Assembly (NCBI RefSeq): GCF_039851975.1
Contig: NZ_CP156660.1
Location: 1,865,035 to 1,929,034, forward strand
DNA length: 64,000 nucleotides
DNA from: Desulfoscipio sp. XC116
GTDB lineage: Bacteria > Bacillota > Desulfotomaculia > Desulfotomaculales > Desulfallaceae
Reading direction: 5' to 3'
Shown in pieces: positions 1,344 to 53,177 of the stretch. Position numbers and translations under genes: made by a program. The stretch's first letter is position 1, and each line of letters starts with the position of its first letter. The notes under the pieces were generated by a model, which worked only from the letters and a program-made list of their open reading frames with translations, was not told the DNA's origin and did not search any database.

Positions 1344-2591
1344 CTATTGAGCGAAATCATCCCGCCCCTCATACCGTTTCCACTCAAAGTATTCCATCGA
1401 TATTTCGCAGGAATATCTCCTGATATTTTTAATTATACGGCAGAACTCATGATATGCGATCATCTTCAGCCACGCCCAAAACCGGTAGTTGCCGTTATAG
1501 GAGGCAATGCATTGGATAGATTTAAGCGCTGTGTTTTGGATCACATCCTCCTTATCTTCCTCTTTCAGAAATGACCGGTGGCTGATATGGAAAACATATC
1601 TTATCAGAAGTGGATAATTCCACTCAAATAAGTATTCCAATGCTTTTGTATCACCAGACAGATACGCCTGGCAAAGCTGATATTCCTGCCTGCGCAGGAA
1701 TATGGATCTGGTTATATCGTCCATCTCAGCCAGGCCAACGCGTAAATCATCCGGTGTGACCGTTATCTGTTGAACCACCTTTCGGAGCAATTCGTGATCC
1801 GGCGGGAATACGCCAAACGCTTTAAATAAAACATTCTCCAACTGTTGTTGTGAAACTGTCGGAGAGTTTTTGCAGTATTTCTTTCCATGCTCCACACGGC
1901 TTGCACAGCGCCAGACAATTTCTTTCCCTTCAAAGGTGTTACGGGTAATCCTCCTGTATGAGCTGCCGCATTCCGAACAAACTAGCAATCCGGAAATAGG
2001 ATCGCTGCTGTATCTCGTCCTGGAATGTACTTGCTTGCCTTGCTCCGTGCAGGATATATTACTGCGCTGCTTTTTCTCCTGTTGCACCTTATCAAATTCA
2101 ACCTGAGAAATGATGGCAGTATGATGATTAGTGATATAATACTGCTCACGCTGTCCTGTGTTCTTAATCTGTTTTCCTGAGATATAATCCTTGATATAGG
2201 ATTTCTGAAGCAGTACGTTCCCGGCATACTTTTCATTGGAGAGTATCCGATTCAGTGTCTGGCTGCTCCATGTCTCTTTCCCGTTAGGAGATGGAATAGC
2301 CAGAGTTTTCAATTCTTTGGCAATTCGATTCAGGCTAAATCCATTTAGGTAGAGCATGAAAATCATACGGAGAATTTCGGCTTGCTTTTCATGGACAATC
2401 AGATAGCCATGCTGATCATGTATATATCCATAGCAAACAGTATTACTCTTTTTGCTTTTAGGGGATTGGAAGCTCTGCTTTAGTCCCCATTTGACGTTTT
2501 TGCTCTTGGACTCGCTCTCTTCCTGAGCAAACCCACTGAGCAAATCAAGCCGTAGCCGGGAGTTTTCGCTTAGAAGGCGGATATTCTCCAA
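1344..2591 (-). CDS. Large serine recombinase, DNA-binding part, fused to a sigma-70 region 2-like domain
   Basis: This frame continues the catalytic domain encoded at 2598-2975 but is separated from it by one in-frame TAG (2598-2600). The first readable codons after the TAG are TTT GAA TTG, and the annotated start is that TTG, without a ribosome binding site. Residues 15-45 hold the end of the catalytic region (FAQEESESKSKNVKWG). About 50-260 form the recombinase domain and zinc beta-ribbon (CSECGSSYRR, later CASRVEHGKKYC). From about 295 to 405 the sequence becomes sigma region 2-like: AYLSGDTKALEYLFEWNYP, EDKEDVIQNTALKS, then FWAWLKMIAYHEFCRIIKNI. Ordinary serine recombinases end in a coiled coil instead. 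The gene is probably inactive unless the TAG is read through. Confidence 0.7.
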   Translation of the reverse strand: MENIRLLSENSRLRLDLLSGFAQEESESKSKNVKWGLKQSFQSPKSKKSNTVCYGYIHDQHGYLIVHEKQAEILRMIFMLYLNGFSLNRIAKELKTLAIPSPNGKETWSSQTLNRILSNEKYAGNVLLQKSYIKDYISGKQIKNTGQREQYYITNHHTAIISQVEFDKVQQEKKQRSNISCTEQGKQVHSRTRYSSDPISGLLVCSECGSSYRRITRNTFEGKEIVWRCASRVEHGKKYCKNSPTVSQQQLENVLFKAFGVFPPDHELLRKVVQQITVTPDDLRVGLAEMDDITRSIFLRRQEYQLCQAYLSGDTKALEYLFEWNYPLLIRYVFHISHRSFLKEEDKEDVIQNTALKSIQCIASYNGNYRFWAWLKMIAYHEFCRIIKNIRRYSCEISMEYFEWKRYEGRDDFAQ

Positions 2592-2597
2592 TTCAAA

Positions 2598-2975
2598 CTA
2601 TACGTCAATTCCAAGCTCACGCAGCTTATCCAGTATTTTAAGGGCATCCAATGTATTTCTTCCGAAACGGCTGACGGATTTGGTCAGGATAATGTTGATC
2701 TTGCCTTTGTGGCAGGCTTTCAACATCTTCTGGAAGTCGCTTCGCGCCTTCATATTTCTGCCACTGGCAATATCTGTGAAGATACCTGCGTTTTCCCAGA
2801 ATGGGTTACTGGTGATCAAGGATTCGTAATGTTGTTTTTGGATATCCAAGCTGTTGAGCAGTTCTTCGGTATTCTTGCTAACCCGGCAATATGCGGCTAC
2901 CTTCAGTTTTGGAATAGAAAAAAACTCTTTCGGTTTTACTGGAATTTCAATGATCTCCACAAACTTGTTTATCAC
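2598..2975 (-). CDS. Serine recombinase catalytic domain, truncated by TAG
   Basis: A 125-residue N-terminal resolvase domain starting at GTG (2973-2975) with AAAGG upstream. The catalytic serine lies in AAYCRVSKN, and the motif KSVSRFGRNTLDALKILDKL is the conserved SRxxRN segment. In intact relatives the protein continues from GIDV directly into F-E-x-E-N-I; here a TAG replaces one residue and the same frame then continues with FELENIRLLSENSRLRL. The two parts therefore were one gene of about 540 codons. It lies just downstream of a second recombinase gene (3030-3827), as in tandem recombinase modules of Clostridial integrative elements. Confidence 0.75.
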   Translation of the reverse strand: MINKFVEIIEIPVKPKEFFSIPKLKVAAYCRVSKNTEELLNSLDIQKQHYESLITSNPFWENAGIFTDIASGRNMKARSDFQKMLKACHKGKINIILTKSVSRFGRNTLDALKILDKLRELGIDV

Positions 2976-3029
2976 CTGCCTTTCCTAAAGGATACAAAAC
3001 TTTTTCCCCTTTGGAAAGGATGATCTATT

Positions 3030-3827
3030 TTACAAGGTCATGGATAAAACCGGTTCCTTCTTGCAGGTGATTTCAAAGCTCCCCTCATGCCTGACTGTGA
3101 TGAAATTTACACTGTTCCGTACAGTCTGTTCGTCAAAGCCCGGCATATCCAATGCCCCGCACATATATTCTTTTACGGCTTCATCGGTGACAGTCACGGA
3201 ATCTTTGCAATATGCTTTTCCATGCTCTACACGATTGGCACAACGCCAGACGACCTCACCGCCGGAACGAGTGATCCTGCGGTAAGGGCTGCCGCATTCC
3301 TCACAAATCAAAAGGCCACTGAGTACATTACCAGAATTGTACTTCGTGGCCTTTCTCTGTGAACCGGATTCTGTTGTTTTAAGATTGGAGCGTCTTGCTT
3401 TTTCTGCCTGTACAGCATCAAAGATATCCTTGGAAATGATGGCCGGGTGATGGTCCGTAAGTAGATACCTTGAGTCAATATTATTTTTAACTTGCTGATC
3501 ATCTTGGATGATAGTTTTTTGGAGTAGGACCTGTCCGACATACTTTTCATTGGACAACAGTCCGTCTACGACCTTGCGGCTCCACTTGTCCTTGCCGGAT
3601 GGAGAGGCTACTTTCTTTTCCGTCAGTGTATCAGCAATTTTTCCCAAACTTTCACCGGAGAGATAACGGTCAAAGATGAAAAGGACGATTTGAGCTTCCT
3701 TTTTATTGATAGTCAAACCTCCATCGGAAGTTTTTGAATAGCCGTAGCAGATCCTATCGGCTATTTTGGACGTTCCAGTTTCAAAGGATTTTTGAATACC
3801 GGCTTTAATCAATTCATTTCTAAACAT
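3030..3827 (-). CDS. Recombinase-domain protein without catalytic domain
   Basis: A 265-residue protein with an ATG and a good GGAGG ribosome binding site just upstream. It begins directly at the recombinase domain (DRICYGYSKTSDGGLTINKK), followed by LLSNEKYVGQVLLQK, and has the zinc beta-ribbon CEECGSPYRR...CANRVEHGKAYC. It aligns closely with the corresponding part of the neighbouring split recombinase but lacks the roughly 140-residue catalytic serine domain, and no such domain is readable upstream before the terminator at 3866. It may act as a DNA-binding partner or accessory protein, or be a relic that kept a usable start. It is the first gene of the recombinase cluster. Confidence 0.8.
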   Translation of the reverse strand: MFRNELIKAGIQKSFETGTSKIADRICYGYSKTSDGGLTINKKEAQIVLFIFDRYLSGESLGKIADTLTEKKVASPSGKDKWSRKVVDGLLSNEKYVGQVLLQKTIIQDDQQVKNNIDSRYLLTDHHPAIISKDIFDAVQAEKARRSNLKTTESGSQRKATKYNSGNVLSGLLICEECGSPYRRITRSGGEVVWRCANRVEHGKAYCKDSVTVTDEAVKEYMCGALDMPGFDEQTVRNSVNFITVRHEGSFEITCKKEPVLSMTL

Positions 3828-3860
3828 AATGATTTCCTCCGTTCAAATAATTTTCTAGAA

Positions 3861-3904
3861 TAAAAAGCCACGACAGTTCAAAACCATCGTAGCTACTTTT
3901 TATT
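3861..3904. terminator. Bidirectional terminator-like hairpin at the island edge
   Basis: An imperfect inverted repeat (AGCCACGA at 3866 against TCGTAGCT ending at 3894) is flanked by T-rich tracts on both strands, so it can act in either direction. It separates the recombinase genes from the tRNA-like fragment and tRNA gene. Confidence 0.5.
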
Positions 3905-3906
3905 AT

Positions 3907-3934
3907 GTGAGGGTTCGAATCCCTCCGTCAGTCA
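3907..3934 (+). other. tRNA 3'-end-like fragment, possible attachment-site remnant
   Basis: GAGGG-TTCGAAT-CCCTC has the stem and loop of a T-arm, followed by CGTCAGTCA as would an acceptor 3' strand. No anticodon arm or D-arm precedes it. It lies beside the recombinase genes on the strand opposite to the intact tRNA-Arg. A tRNA 3' end duplicated by integration is a reasonable reading, but the second copy is not in the window. Confidence 0.35.
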
Positions 3935-3966
3935 ATAATTCCTTTTTGCTTTTTGTTCCTGATAAC

Positions 3967-4026
3967 GAAAAAGGTGACAAACCTTGATTTCAAGCCATTT
4001 CTTGAAAAACAGTTTTGTCACCTTAT
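3967..4026 (-). terminator. Terminator of the tRNA-Arg gene
   Basis: A long imperfect hairpin with outer arms AAGGTGACAAA and TTTGTCACCTT and inner arms TTTCAAG/CTTGAAA, followed on the minus strand by a T-run, begins three bases after the tRNA 3' end. Confidence 0.65.
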
Positions 4027-4028
4027 CT

Positions 4029-4103
4029 TGGTGCGCCTGGCAGGAATCGAACCTGCGCTTCCGGCTCCGGAGGCCGGCGCTCTATCCCCTGAGCTACAGG
4101 CGC
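4029..4103 (-). tRNA. tRNA-Arg (anticodon CCG), CCA encoded
   Basis: The complement folds into a full cloverleaf: acceptor GCGCCTG/CAGGCGC, D-arm with AGCTCAGGGGATAGAGCG, anticodon stem-loop with loop CTCCGGA (anticodon CCG), and T-arm with GGTTCGATTCC. The discriminator A and CCA are encoded. The intact gene is the natural landing site next to the recombinase island. Confidence 0.95.
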
Positions 4104-17474: not shown

Positions 17475-17558
17475 AAAAAGCCCACACTGACAGAATTTAT
17501 ATATTAAACTGCCAGGCAGGCTTCATTGCCTCTTATTTAAGATACACCATTGTACCTT
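17475..17558 (-). promoter_or_regulatory. ANTAR-type two-hairpin antiterminator and terminator, glnA1 leader
   Basis: On the minus strand, hairpin P1 (17539-17558) has stem AAGGTAC/GTATCTT with loop AATGGT. P2 (17518-17531) has stem AGGC/GCCT with loop AATGAA. Both six-base loops have A1 and G4, the hallmark of ANTAR targets. The 3' arm of P2 is the start of the terminator 5' arm (17522 to 17480, arms CTGGCAG/CTGTCAG plus AGCC/GGCT, then TTTTT). P2 and the terminator are mutually exclusive, so ANTAR binding should allow read-through into glnA1. Confidence 0.85.
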
Positions 17559-17638: not shown

Positions 17639-18223
17639 CTATTTATTTAATGTATGGGCCATAATTACCGCTTCAGCCACCAGCCGTATGCTTACCCGCT
17701 TATTCATACTCTGACGCTGCATGCGCTTGAAAGCCTCGGCTTCAGTTAGACCCTGCGTTTCCATTAAAATACCCTTGGCCCGTTCCACTGCTTTTCTGGT
17801 CTCCAACGTTTCCTGCAATTCTTTAATTTTCTTTTCCAGGGCGGTTATCTCCTGGTAATTAGCCATGGCTAACTCTACCGCCGGCAATAATATTGTTTCC
17901 TCCACAGGCTTAATAAACAGCGCGGACACCCTGGCTTCTTTAGCCCTTTCCAGTATCCCGTGCCGGCCGGTTGCACTGGTGGCGATTACCGGAGCCAGTT
18001 TATCTTCATGCATAATTTTAGCTACCTGCAGCCCGTCCATACCGCCTGGCAAAGAGGTATCAATAATCAACAAATCCGGCTGCCTGCCGCGCACCAGTTT
18101 TATCGCGCTCAGACCATCGCCGGCCTCTCCTACAACCCAGTGGCCGGACTTGGTAAGCATTGCTTTTACGTTTTTGCGCCAAACGCTATCGGCATCGATC
18201 AATATAACTCTGAATTCGCCCAT
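17639..18223 (-). CDS. ANTAR-domain response regulator (transcription antiterminator)
   Basis: A 194-residue two-domain protein. The receiver (1-120) has phospho-acceptor Asp55 in LLIIDTSLPGG, an ATSAT switch region and Lys in LFIKPVEE. A helical linker (ITALEKKIKELQETLETR) leads to an ANTAR domain at about 140-192 with the canonical KAVERAKGILMETQGLTEAE and AFKRMQRQSMNKR. ANTAR proteins such as EutV, AmiR and NasR bind two-hairpin RNA motifs and stop terminator formation. The start MGEFRVILID is chosen at 18223; a longer frame would include the leader hairpin. The gene precedes glnA1 and has its own ANTAR-like leader. No histidine kinase gene is in the window. Confidence 0.93.
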   Translation of the reverse strand: MGEFRVILIDADSVWRKNVKAMLTKSGHWVVGEAGDGLSAIKLVRGRQPDLLIIDTSLPGGMDGLQVAKIMHEDKLAPVIATSATGRHGILERAKEARVSALFIKPVEETILLPAVELAMANYQEITALEKKIKELQETLETRKAVERAKGILMETQGLTEAEAFKRMQRQSMNKRVSIRLVAEAVIMAHTLNK

Positions 18224-18246: not shown

Positions 18247-18324
18247 AAATAAAAATGCCCGTGCAGATATTATTATATCCTGCACAGGGCAATCATTGCC
18301 AGTAATAGACACATCGTTGTATCC
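18247..18324 (-). promoter_or_regulatory. ANTAR-like antiterminator and terminator in the leader of the ANTAR regulator gene
   Basis: P1 (18307-18324): stem GGATAC/GTGTCT, loop AACGAT (A1 and G4). P2 (18288-18300): GGCA/TGCC with loop ATGAT, one base short of a hexaloop, yet sharing the GGCAATGA core with the glnA1 element. The GCC of P2 begins the terminator (18290 to 18257, arms CTGTGCAG region/CTGCACGGGC, then ATTTTTATTTTT). Suggests autoregulation. Confidence 0.72.
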
Positions 18325-18493
18325 TTATTATTTAAAACAATTAACTAAATTATATCAATCTTTTTTGGAAAAGCAATGCTTTTTATTTCACCATATAAAA
18401 ACATATATTTTTTTCTTTTGCCGGCCGGCAAAAGAAAATTCCGCAGCTGGATAGCTGCTTGAAATTGACTTTCATAATGAGTTTAACCAAAGC

Positions 18494-34445: not shown

Positions 34446-34764
34446 ACAACACATTGCCATAATAATACACTTTTTTTAGGCAATTTTATACCCCCCGCCA
34501 CAGCATTATGCCGTGGCAAACTCCAACTGTAAATATTTTCGGAAAGATTATCGCAGGTAAGAGCCAAGGCATATTCATGTTCCTGTCTAAGAAAGTTTTT
34601 ATCCTTATTACGGTAAATCCATAATATATATTCTTTATTATCCATGCTTTCAGCCCTTTGCATAGTCATAGTTATACCAAACGCTATTTACCCCCATTAT
34701 TTACCTATGCATTTGTTCTGCCAATTTAATTTGAATTTGCATATTCTATATTAGCAAGGCTCAA
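34442..34764. other. Intergenic region with one doubtful small frame
   Basis: A minus-strand frame (34442-34669, 75 codons) contains protein-like sequence (MDNKEYILWIYRNKDKNFLR) but has no matching family, no clear ribosome binding site, and overlaps the HEPN gene stop. I do not call it a gene. The region otherwise holds the promoter of asnB, probably near 34740-34755. Confidence 0.3.
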
Positions 34765-34837
34765 GTAGATGCAATAGGGCATCTACCTTTCAGGCAATGT
34801 CGCCCGCCTTTTATGGTGGGCGACATTTTTATTTTTT
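34765..34837 (+). promoter_or_regulatory. ANTAR-type antiterminator and terminator, asnB leader
   Basis: P1 (34765-34786): perfect 8-bp stem GTAGATGC/GCATCTAC, loop AATAGG (A1 kept, position 4 is A). P2 (34793-34804): stem GGC/GCC, loop AATGTC (A1, G4). P2 overlaps the 5' arm of a strong terminator (34798-34825, TGTCGCCCGCC/GGTGGGCGACA) followed by a T-rich tract. Confidence 0.78.
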
Positions 34838-41833: not shown

Positions 41834-42271
41834 TTAGCAGTCCACATATACCAGTGCTTCGTTGGGACAGCGACTTACGCAATATAAGGTATCCATACCG
41901 GCGCACAGGTCGCATTTGATAATGCCTCTTTGCCGGGGATTTATTAAAATGTTGCCGTAAGGACAAGTCAGCACACAGCTATAGCAACCCACGCATTGGT
42001 TTGGGTCATGGACTACTATCCCACTCTCCGGGTCTTTACTTAAAGCCCCGCTGATACAGGCGGCAACACAGTCCGGCTCGGCACAATGCCTGCACTGCAA
42101 TGCAAAGGTAAGCGGCAGTTTTTCCTCTACCACCAGCCTGGGCAGCGGTTTGTTTACTTCATATAGAAAAGCTTTTACAATATGCTTGGATTTGGAGTGG
42201 GCTACCGCACACCATACCTCACACAGGTGACAGCCCATGCAAACTTCGGGCTTAGCCATAATTCTCCCCAT
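41834..42271 (-). CDS. 4Fe-4S ferredoxin-like electron transfer subunit
   Basis: A 145-residue polyferredoxin with four cysteine groups: CMGCHLCEVWC, CRHCAEPDCVAAC, CVGCYSCVLTCPYG and CDLCAGMDTLYCVSRCP. The HycB/DmsB-like arrangement suggests up to four clusters. It is the first gene of the split glutamate synthase operon and probably links the flavoprotein to the FMN domain. Two start codons four residues apart are possible. Confidence 0.9.
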   Translation of the reverse strand: MGRIMAKPEVCMGCHLCEVWCAVAHSKSKHIVKAFLYEVNKPLPRLVVEEKLPLTFALQCRHCAEPDCVAACISGALSKDPESGIVVHDPNQCVGCYSCVLTCPYGNILINPRQRGIIKCDLCAGMDTLYCVSRCPNEALVYVDC

Positions 42272-42330: not shown

Positions 42331-42417
42331 AAAATAAAAGGCCCCCAAGACATGCCTATGGACAGGCAGTATCTTGGGGGCCGCATCGCCCTTATTGCGC
42401 GGACTCGTCATTGAGCC
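42331..42417 (-). promoter_or_regulatory. ANTAR-type antiterminator module B, glutamate synthase operon leader
   Basis: P1 (42402-42417): stem GGCTC/GAGTC, loop AATGAC (A1, G4). P2 (42378-42391): stem GGGC/GCCC, loop GATGCG (G1, G4). P2 overlaps the 5' arm of a very strong terminator (42340-42382, GGCCCCCAAGA/TCTTGGGGGCC) followed by TTTTATTTT on the minus strand. Confidence 0.78.
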
Positions 42418-42592: not shown

Positions 42593-42621
42593 TTGCAATT
42601 TGAAAACGTTTGAATTATAAT
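42593..42621 (+). promoter_or_regulatory. Promoter of glnA2
   Basis: TTGCAA (42593-42598) and TATAAT (42616-42621) with 17 bp spacing; the predicted start at about 42628 leaves a 220-base leader holding two antiterminator modules. Confidence 0.65.
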
Positions 42622-42643
42622 GACCTTGTTAAATTTAATAAAC

Positions 42644-42728
42644 ATTAATACAACGATGTATTAATAATTAATGGCGACGATGCCCACGAACAGTTATGAA
42701 TAATTGTTCGTGGGCTTTTTATTTTTAA
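42644..42728 (+). promoter_or_regulatory. ANTAR-type antiterminator module A, glnA2 leader
   Basis: P1 (42644-42665): perfect 8-bp stem ATTAATAC/GTATTAAT, loop AACGAT (A1, G4). P2 (42673-42684): stem GGC/GCC, loop GACGAT (G1, G4). P2 overlaps the 5' arm of a terminator (42682-42715, GCCCACGAACA/TGTTCGTGGGC) followed by TTTTTATTTTT. Confidence 0.85.
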
Positions 42729-42807
42729 CCGTGCAACGTTGTACGGTAACCCGGCGAGGAAGCCGGCACAAGGCTTATTTAATCGGATCTTGTGTCGGCT
42801 TTTATTG
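42729..42807 (+). promoter_or_regulatory. ANTAR-type antiterminator module B, glnA2 leader
   Basis: P1 (42729-42746): stem CCGTGC/GTACGG, loop AACGTT (A1, G4). P2 (42751-42766): 5-bp stem CCGGC/GCCGG, loop GAGGAA (G1, G4). P2 overlaps a second terminator (42761-42800, AGCCGGCACAAG/CTTGTGTCGGCT) followed by TTTATTG. It follows module A directly. Confidence 0.8.
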
Positions 42808-42852: not shown

Positions 42853-44175
42853 ATGGATAAAAGAGAGGTCATTGCCGAGGCAAGAGAAAAGGGAGTTAAG
42901 TTTATCCGGTTGCAATTTACTGATTTGCTGGGGGTAATGAAAAACGTAGCCATCACAATTGATCAGCTGGAAAAAGCTTTGGACGGGGAATTAATGTTTG
43001 ACGGTTCCTCTATATATGGTTTCACCAGAATAGAAGAGTCCGATATGTACCTGCGTCCTGATCCCAACACTTTTGTGGTGTTTCCCTGGCGGCCCAGGGA
43101 AGGTGGGGTAGCCAGATTAATGTGCGATATCTACAATCCCGATGGCAGTCCTTTTGACGGTTGTCCCAGGGTAATCTTACAGCGCCAGCTGGCCAAGGCG
43201 GCGGAACTTGGTTATACCCTGCAAGTGGGACCGGAGCTTGAGTTTTTCCTGTTCTGCATGGATGATAATAACGTGCCAACGCTAAAAACCCACGACAACG
43301 CCGGATACTTTGATCTTTCACCTGTGGACTTGGGAGAGCAGGCTCGCAGGGAGATAGTGTTAACTCTGGAGCAGATGGGCTTTGAAATTGAGGCCTCCCA
43401 TCACGAGGTGGCTCCCGGCCAGCATGAAATTGACTTTAAGTACTCGGATGCTTTGGATACAGCCGATAAAATCGTTACCTTTAAATTCGTCGTAAGAACA
43501 ATTGCCCAGCGGCATGGTCTACACGCGACATTTATGCCCAAACCGGTTTTCGGCATCAACGGCAGCGGCATGCATACCAACCAATCTCTGTTTAGAGGCA
43601 ACAGAAATGCTTTTTATGACGAAAAGGGTTCTATGCAGCTAAGCAAAGAAGCATACTATTATATCGGTGGTTTATTAAAACATGCCCGGGCACTGGCCGC
43701 TGTAACCAATCCCACAGTCAACTCCTATAAGCGCCTGGTACCCGGATATGAAGCACCGGTATATTTGGCCTGGAGCGGTTGTAATCGCAGTCCTTTGATT
43801 CGTATTCCCGCTAAGCGGGGTCAAAGCACCCGGGTTGAACTGCGCAACCCGGATCCGTCCTGCAACCCGTATCTGGCCCTGGCGGGATGCCTGGCGGCCG
43901 GTTTGGACGGCGTTGTCAATCAGATCGATCCGCCTCCGGCGTGCGACAGAAACATTTACCGAATGACTGATGCGGAATTGGATGAACTGGATATTAAATC
44001 GCTACCCGGCAGCTTACAGGAAGCATACGCGGAATTGAGCCGGAATGAGACTATTAAAGGTGCGCTGGGTGAGCACATTTATGAAAAGCTGTTAGAAGCC
44101 AAGGCTAAGGAATGGGAAGCATTCTGTTTGCAAGTGCACCAGTGGGAAATAGACCGCTACCTGACCATGTTCTGA
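42853..44175 (+). CDS. glnA: Glutamine synthetase type I, second copy
   Basis: A 440-residue GSI close to the enzyme encoded at 16080. Motifs: [88 protein letters not shown]. It starts at [14 protein letters not shown] behind AAAGGTGG; a longer frame open from 42739 covers the leader RNA and is not translated. Next to amtB-glnK and divergent from glutamate synthase, it is likely the copy coupled to the GS/GOGAT cycle. Confidence 0.95.
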
Positions 44176-44211: not shown

Positions 44212-44282
44212 GATACATTGCTGTATCGCTGCGGATAAAGAAGTCCTGACACCGGGAAACAGGTGTAGGGACTTCTTTTTTT
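44212..44282 (+). promoter_or_regulatory. ANTAR-type antiterminator and terminator, amtB leader
   Basis: P1 (44212-44227): stem GATAC/GTATC, loop ATTGCT (A1, G4). P2 (44233-44246): stem GGAT/GTCC with a closing U-G pair, loop AAAGAA (A1, G4). The GTCC arm is part of the terminator 5' arm (44238-44277, AAGAAGTCC...GGGACTTCTT, with ACACC/GGTGT inside), followed by TTTTTTT. Confidence 0.83.
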
Positions 44283-47412: not shown

Positions 47413-47803
47413 AATGAGGTTCCCCCTTTATTATAAATACCTGCCGCAGCCTGTGACGTTAAATACCCGTATCTAGTATCAATTATCGATATAAAGGCAG
47501 CCTTGTTCGAATGCATGGCTGCCGTGCCACAGGTATTAAGCCCCCAAACAAAGTAATATTTTAAGCGGATGCGGCCGGCACCCTTTAATTGTGGCGGATA
47601 TACTCTCACAATATAAAGCGCCATGATACAGGCATTTTTGATAAACCTTCTCATGGCGCCGTTGCCAGAGTGTTTTCGTAAACCACAGGGTTATTTTATT
47701 ATATGCGGGGATATGAAAAAAAGATTTGCCAAAATGGCGCCCGGATGTGCCATATATTGGACACAAATGGCGGCAGTCCGCTTTAGGGAGGCCGGCAATA
47801 GGC
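47413..47803. other. Intergenic region without a supported gene
   Basis: I see no convincing gene. A hairpin GGCAGCC/GGCTGCC (47496-47523) with a short T-tract on the minus strand may end the nitrilase transcript or form part of the next leader. Confidence 0.4.
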
Positions 47804-52834: not shown

Positions 52835-52922
52835 ATCTTTACACTACCGCATTAAATCCGCTATGCCGCGGCTGCAAAGTATTCACACCAACCCTCTCCT
52901 TGGGAGGTTAACCATGTGTGAA

Positions 52923-53099
52923 CTCGGGTAGGTCTCCTGACTTATGGCTCATTGCCCGCCTTTAGCCTTCCCGGTTACGCCGGTGGCAATTAAAAGGAGG
53001 CTCGCCATTTACAGTGGCCGGACCGTCCAGGATTTTCACCTGATTCCCTATTATCCCTATAAAAGCTGTATCAACTTACACAGTTTTAGGGCACCCGAG
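52923..53099 (-). promoter_or_regulatory. Cobalamin riboswitch
   Basis: On the minus strand the P1 stem CTCGGGT/ACCCGAG closes an element holding AATCAGGTGAAAATCCTGG, GGCCACTGTAAATGG and AGTCAGGAGACC, the B12-box and core sequences of adenosylcobalamin riboswitches. It precedes a terminator and the cbiJ-cbiMNQO genes, so cobalt uptake should be shut off by cobalamin. Confidence 0.95.
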
Positions 53100-53177
53100 T
53101 AGTTCCAAGTATTAAATTACTCAATTGATATTAACACATTTAAGATATGTTGTCCATAGTTAGTAAGCCTGCCGCAA

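Follow-up and report, generated by a model that had tools for sequence, protein, structure and literature searches.

The leader of glnA2 in Desulfoscipio sp. XC116 consists of a P1-P2-terminator unit that occurs twice in succession (module A, 42644–42715; module B, 42728–42799), with a U-tract after each as read directly from the DNA; our best reading, held with good confidence, is that these are two ANTAR-controlled attenuators set in series to govern glnA2, both answering to one regulator. The direct basis for this reading lies in the anatomy of the leader, covariation, conservation, the exclusivity of the alternative folds, and the presence of a regulator and of further modules; from these we infer protein binding, termination at each of the two sites, an activating signal (likely to be low nitrogen) and a steeper response. 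All coordinates refer to the stretch of 64,000 nucleotides that was analysed as a whole (hereafter ‘the window’). The features of the leader are as follows.

42593..42621, + strand: promoter-like site TTGCAA-17-TATAAT (10/12 matches), 5′ of both modules
42644..42665, + strand: P1 of module A, 8 bp, hexaloop AACGAT (A1, G4)
42673..42684, + strand: P2 of module A, GGC/GCC, hexaloop GACGAT (G1, G4)
42682..42715, + strand: terminator A, 15 bp with a 4-nt loop, then TTTTTATTTTT
42728..42747, + strand: P1 of module B, 7 bp including one G-T, hexaloop AACGTT (A1, G4)
42751..42766, + strand: P2 of module B, 5 bp, hexaloop GAGGAA (G1, G4)
42762..42799, + strand: terminator B, then TTTTATTG, a shorter U-tract than that of A
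42853..44175, + strand: glnA2, type I glutamine synthetase, 440 aa (TIGR00653, 583 bits)

Moving from the inferred transcription start towards the gene, approximately 225 bases are traversed before the ATG at 42853, and these hold both complete units. In module A a linker of 7 nt joins P1 to P2, the 3′ strand of P2 being at the same time the first three bases of terminator A; in module B the corresponding strand makes up the first five bases of terminator B, and the linker measures 3 nt with every pair formed or 5 nt with P2 taken as its 3-bp core. The ANTAR dual-hexaloop definition puts this linker at about 5–12 nt. Directly 3′ of terminator B the sequence reads TTTTATT. Both hairpins of both modules present a hexaloop on a stem of at least 3 bp, as in the ANTAR dual-hexaloop definition. 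The classical A1/G4 rule holds in the two P1 loops; the P2 loops keep the G4 only, their first position being G in A and in B where the textbook has A. According to the text of the E. faecalis work on eutP, changing A to U at this position of the P2 loop reduced induction, and a P1-P2 linker of 3 nt was likewise harmful to it (PMC3369931); in the text describing the crystal, A1 has no specific contact. Loops of the G1 type can serve to probe what is indispensable in the ANTAR recognition rule, and they would escape any motif search that requires A1 in both loops.

Folding z-scores come to −6.6 for module A, −5.5 for module B and −7.4 for the whole leader, with none of 200 shuffles as stable in any of the three cases. 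A scanner for P1, P2 and terminator in combination returns five modules from the two strands of the window, A and B included, and none from six one-strand order-1 Markov resamplings. Modules A and B were among the training sequences of our first covariance model (R1), whose scores for these two are therefore no evidence; for this reason a held-out model (R2) was built, its 14 training modules all preceding ANTAR regulator genes and coming from other genomes within the order. Four of the 14 belong to the same family, and glnA2 leaders were kept out of the set. Run over the window, R2 matches module A at 55.7 bits (E 2.1e-11) and module B at 35.0 bits (E 2.1e-6); its matches at E ≤ 0.005 number seven, all of them ahead of nitrogen genes or the regulator gene. 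In a genome-wide run that scored 150 of the 1276 first-look candidates, R2 places only A and the leaders of the regulator and glnA1 above noise and does not list B; R1, also run on the whole genome, returns one further site, at 32 bits and with a weak P1, ahead of a xanthine-dehydrogenase-like gene. A minus-strand R1 match at 42675–42748 (33.8 bits) was rejected, as it is the mirror image of the palindromic stems and has no P2 loop. Rfam at gathering scores gives no ANTAR match in the window; we know of no ANTAR family in Rfam, and this negative is uninformative. Direct reading and the held-out model together confirm the tandem of two complete P1-P2-terminator units put forward in the preliminary description, and the drops in RNA coverage that it placed at 42716 and 42801 agree with the predicted ends of the terminators to within about one base.

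The P1 and terminator pairs covary in an alignment of 23 modules (A2; the amt module, misaligned by MAFFT in the earlier alignment A1, is omitted), with 12 of 16 pairs changed on both sides and 93.2% of cells paired, as against 33–45% when the partner is slid. The GGC/GCC core of P2 is invariant in the same alignment and, since it never varies, provides no evidence of covariation. In thermodynamic folding of the growing transcript—a series of equilibrium calculations rather than kinetics—P2-A, once formed, remains paired at 0.94 or above until 42713 and is lost by 42715 as the terminator closes; P2-B is lost by 42799, and is also transiently displaced at 42786–42791. The calculated cost of holding P2 is 6.1 kcal/mol in A and 7.3 kcal/mol in B; P2 and its own terminator are thus predicted to be mutually exclusive in both modules. 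With P2 formed, each terminator hairpin can remain folded in its upper part, and a protein would therefore need to protect only a few base pairs at the terminator’s foot.

In the mechanism we propose, transcription would start 5′ of both modules and, in each of them, P1 and then P2 would form during synthesis of the RNA. In the absence of active regulator, P2 would give way to the last few bases of the terminator’s 3′ arm and polymerase would stop; an active receiver-ANTAR protein would bind the loops of P1 and P2 and hold the latter, such that the terminator hairpin stays short of the U-tract and readthrough follows. Polymerase would face this test twice in the glnA2 leader and, as it has to be passed twice, leakage would be multiplied down and dependence on the regulator would be steeper than for singly controlled neighbours.

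The TATAAT of the promoter-like site ahead of module A can be read by eye in 14 of the 16 leaders of the family. A scan of 14 kb for promoter-like sites and terminators, in which neither type of site is more numerous than in shuffled sequence, lists a weak promoter-like site overlapping P1-A (42639–42668) and none between A and B; terminator A appears in its list of simple terminators and terminator B is absent. With a promoter-like site upstream of both modules and none listed between them, the layout agrees with the earlier suggestion that two terminators stand in series ahead of glnA2. Terminator A is, in the scan as on direct reading, a strong intrinsic terminator with a strong U-tract, which is what would be seen if the hairpins of A and B were ordinary terminators of an upstream gene; we find this scarcely credible, and rejected it because the upstream operon is divergent, its ORF at 41834–42271 lying on the minus strand. 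The placing of the promoter-like site just ahead of module A and the conservation of the P1 and P2 loops also speak against it.

The candidate regulator and the other modules of the window are given below.

17639..18223, − strand: receiver-ANTAR response regulator, the sole ANTAR match in the genome, 24 kb from the glnA2 leader
18250..18326, − strand: module before the regulator gene (R2 54.6 bits, E 3.9e-11)
17479..17558, − strand: single module before the second glutamine synthetase gene, glnA1 (17411–16080), found by the scanner (R2 43.9 bits, E 1.6e-8)
34764..34833, + strand: module before the asparagine synthase gene asnB (ATG 34906; R2 29.1 bits, E 5.8e-5)
42341..42417, − strand: single module before the divergent ferredoxin/glutamate-synthase-like (‘glt-like’) operon (42271–36973), found by the scanner (R2 27.2 bits, E 1.6e-4)
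44212..44272, + strand: single ANTAR-type module before amt (44354), found by the scanner (R2 21.1 bits, E 0.005)

The regulator matches EutV (6wsh/6ww6) at 106 bits and Rv1626 (1s8n) at 144 bits and, when aligned with the former, has both the phospho-acceptor Asp and the receiver Lys. At the RNA-contact positions of EutV, whose numbering we matched by alignment to the text of PMC8934654, it carries Phe for Tyr164, Gln for Arg168 and Ser for Arg177, and keeps Met172, Asn173 and Arg175. Its likely start is the ATG at 18223, with a module just upstream, and judged on sequence its own gene is possibly autoregulated. A search of the genome with PF07568 at E 0.001 found no HisKA_2 kinase, the same search matching two of 14 control genomes. 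EutW is a HisKA_2-type sensor kinase; a second kinase search, with PF12282, matched no control genome and so is uninformative. Features that count against the reading of two attenuators in series are the G1 of the P2 loops, the failure to find a HisKA_2 kinase, the 3-nt linker of module B, the transient displacement of P2-B and the reduced state of module B in several relatives (see below).

Six transcription units of the window carry modules, those of the regulator, glnA1, asnB, the glt-like operon, glnA2 and amt, the last with a P-II gene behind it. The loops of these modules (P1 followed by P2) are AATGGT and AATGAA for glnA1, AATGAC and GATGCG for the glt-like operon, and ATTGCT and AAAGAA for amt, a module that model R1 does not match; in the asnB module P1 has AATAGG, without G4, and the P2 loop AATGTC fits, whilst the P2 loop of the regulator leader has one base extra (AATGATT between GGC and GCC). 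On the minus strand at 47611–47682, 5′ of an NTPase-like gene, there is in addition a hexaloop hairpin (TGGC-AACGGC-GCCA) that overlaps a terminator-like hairpin and has no P1; its matches are weak (R1, E 0.003; R2, 18.2 bits, E 0.024), and R2 gives three poorer ones over the window.

Conservation was followed through a family set of 16 genomes, the named close relatives being species of Sporotomaculum, Desulfoscipio and Desulfotruncus. A first module with canonical P1, P2 and terminator is found in 15 of the 16 leaders, the exception (L096) having an unrelated upstream region; the gap between P1 and P2 of this first module is 14–21 nt in L092–L095 (script count), as against 3–11 nt in the others. 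A second module, taken as a P2 hexaloop with G4 plus a terminator-like hairpin, is found in 12 of the 16, ten by script and two by eye (L089 and L092, where the U-tract is poor in each case). In L093 this second module is eroded, its terminator-like hairpin lacking the G4 loop, and no second module was seen in L094 or L095. A stricter scanner demanding a P1 and a short linker scores two modules in seven leaders, one in six and none in three, and in two of these three (L093 and L095) the first module has the longer linker; R2, at E 0.05, recovers the first module in 15/16 and the second in 6/16. Several relatives have only part of module B or none of it, so control in series can be dispensed with.

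The two P1 hairpins have fared unevenly. Canonical closing pairs are seen in the P1 of seven of 12 second modules (six by script, L089 by eye) and in all 15 first modules (Fisher p 0.01, uncorrected for relatedness); the second-module P1 is missing in L083, L085 and L092, and L086 and L087 have only an unusual alternative. It is because the P1 of B is evolutionarily loose, and because its U-tract is the shorter, that we considered whether module A alone is regulated in practice, with B a partly constitutive attenuator or a backup that sets a ceiling. On balance we think this somewhat unlikely, as module B here has an intact P1 with A1 and G4 and is matched by the held-out model; moreover G4 hexaloops are kept in P2 of the 12 second modules (G4 being, saying this, part of the criterion by which those 12 are recognised), and a constitutive terminator needs none. 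Position 1 of the P2 loop is G in 4/15 family leaders for A and in 6/12 for B, the rest having A; the pairings of P2-A with P2-B within the 12 leaders (G/G 4, A/A 6, A/G 2, G/A 0) are confounded by relatedness.

As to the history of the pair, module A here is 54% identical to its own B, and A and B are each 82% identical to their best orthologue; in eight genomes, chosen because both modules could be aligned, identity is 75% for A with A, 66% for B with B and 52% for A with B of the same genome. Recent duplication of one module was rejected on these comparisons. The preliminary description had already held that the modules are not a simple recent duplication, and this stands: A and B are closer to their orthologues than to each other, and the pair predates the genus. 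In a tree of GlnA2 (midpoint root only) the 16 family rows, with G042 adjoining, are set apart at 100/98 support. If these modules are homologous, the pair would date from before the family arose, and B would have decayed afterwards in the clade of G008, G011, G013 and G015; the pair could also have been gained stepwise.

Tandem and triple modules are found in other leaders too. When 113 genomes of the class were searched with a strict two-P2 pattern, 14 matches turned up in 12 genomes, as compared with two for the backwards pattern in the same set, and on this ground a few chance matches are to be expected; twelve of the matches fall in ten of the 16 family genomes, and the others in G042 and, once, in G058, the last being set aside as chance since by eye it looks like coding sequence. 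Among the matches listed, G007 has module pairs at at least two loci besides glnA2. Two of its tandem leaders (L152 1346–1506 and L153 997–1155) are very similar, lie in separate places and have a decayed second-module P1, the L153 one preceding a sodium:solute symporter gene that is itself followed by a xanthine-dehydrogenase-like gene; another pair stands before an ammonium transporter gene. In G059 (L155 5591–5817, minus strand) three modules in a row, all matched by both R1 and R2, directly precede nifH, which two P-II genes follow, and in G039 two modules approximately 125 nt apart precede an amt gene. From the glnA2, G007 and G059 leaders it therefore appears that multiplication of modules recurs.

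Several of these leaders bear on the idea of a relay: the regulator would be loaded for B by the hairpins of module A, B could do without its own P1, and three hexaloops would suffice for two terminators. Outside the family, G042 has a complete A (P1 loop GATGAT) and, directly after its U-tract, a B made of P2 and terminator with no P1; second modules with a P1 that is missing or decayed are found also in G001, G003, G008 and at two loci of G007. The path from A to B would be shortened in such a relay, the upper hairpin of terminator A staying folded with P2-A held. We nonetheless judge it unlikely, because module B here has its own P1 and, in the text of PMC8934654, lengthening the P1-P2 linker by 20 nt abolished antitermination by EutV in vitro. 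Were it true, half-modules (P2 and terminator with no P1) would be functional downstream of a complete one, and the complete pair would represent one version of an old nitrogen switch, modular and with several terminators, that runs to three modules ahead of nifH. Either way, second modules that have no P1 are relevant to the question of whether a single ANTAR dimer has to contact two loops belonging to one unit.

Terminated leaders might alternatively soak up the regulator, in the manner of EutX/Rli55 for EutV, a doubled module then being a doubled bait. A transcript stopped at B would indeed retain two P1 hairpins, and the sequestration of EutV by EutX, as described in the text of PMC8934654, provides a precedent; in the terminated form, however, P2 is consumed, and the stability of the RNA is putative. 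We hold this to be very unlikely, and return to two attenuators in series as the preferred reading.

With respect to known systems, the switch is of an ordinary type and its mechanism is the ANTAR one already published (in the text of PMC3369931 and PMC8934654). It shares with the dual-hexaloop attenuators of EutV-eut, NasR-nasF and AmiR-amiE a P1, a short linker, a P2 overlapping the 5′ arm of the terminator, and hexaloops with G4, as well as, with EutV, a receiver-ANTAR regulator; unlike these three, the glnA2 leader has two complete units with P2 loops that start with G, and the regulon here is one of ammonium assimilation in a genome where no HisKA_2 kinase was found. ANTAR nitrogen regulons are reported in the text of PMC3369931 for Desulfotomaculum acetoxidans and D. 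reducens, bacteria related to ours and with nitrogen genes under control as here; for D. acetoxidans it counts 13 ANTAR attenuators in six transcription units (Ramesh 2012), and several per unit had therefore already been published. Back-to-back modules and their conservation are not described in the text of that paper considered here, and among the matches listed in the open literature no title or abstract opening concerns back-to-back ANTAR modules. Two attenuators in series within one leader are also described for Salmonella mgtCBR (PMC3641672), where control is by translation of short leader ORFs as opposed to an ANTAR protein. What we add is modest, and consists of a tandem that is conserved ahead of glnA2, a G as first base of the P2 loops, and P1 hairpins that have fared differently in the two modules. 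With leaders of one, two and three modules in one bacterial group, what serial attenuation does to basal level and to steepness would become directly measurable.

Two other features of the window may be recorded. A cobalamin riboswitch (Rfam RF00174, 112 bits) occupies 52910–53113 on the minus strand. Two recombinase-like ORFs, at 1344–4103 on the same strand, adjoin a tRNA-Arg gene, an arrangement like that of an integration site; the first matches PF07508 and, at the C-terminus, sigma-70 region 2, and the second was recognised by eye.
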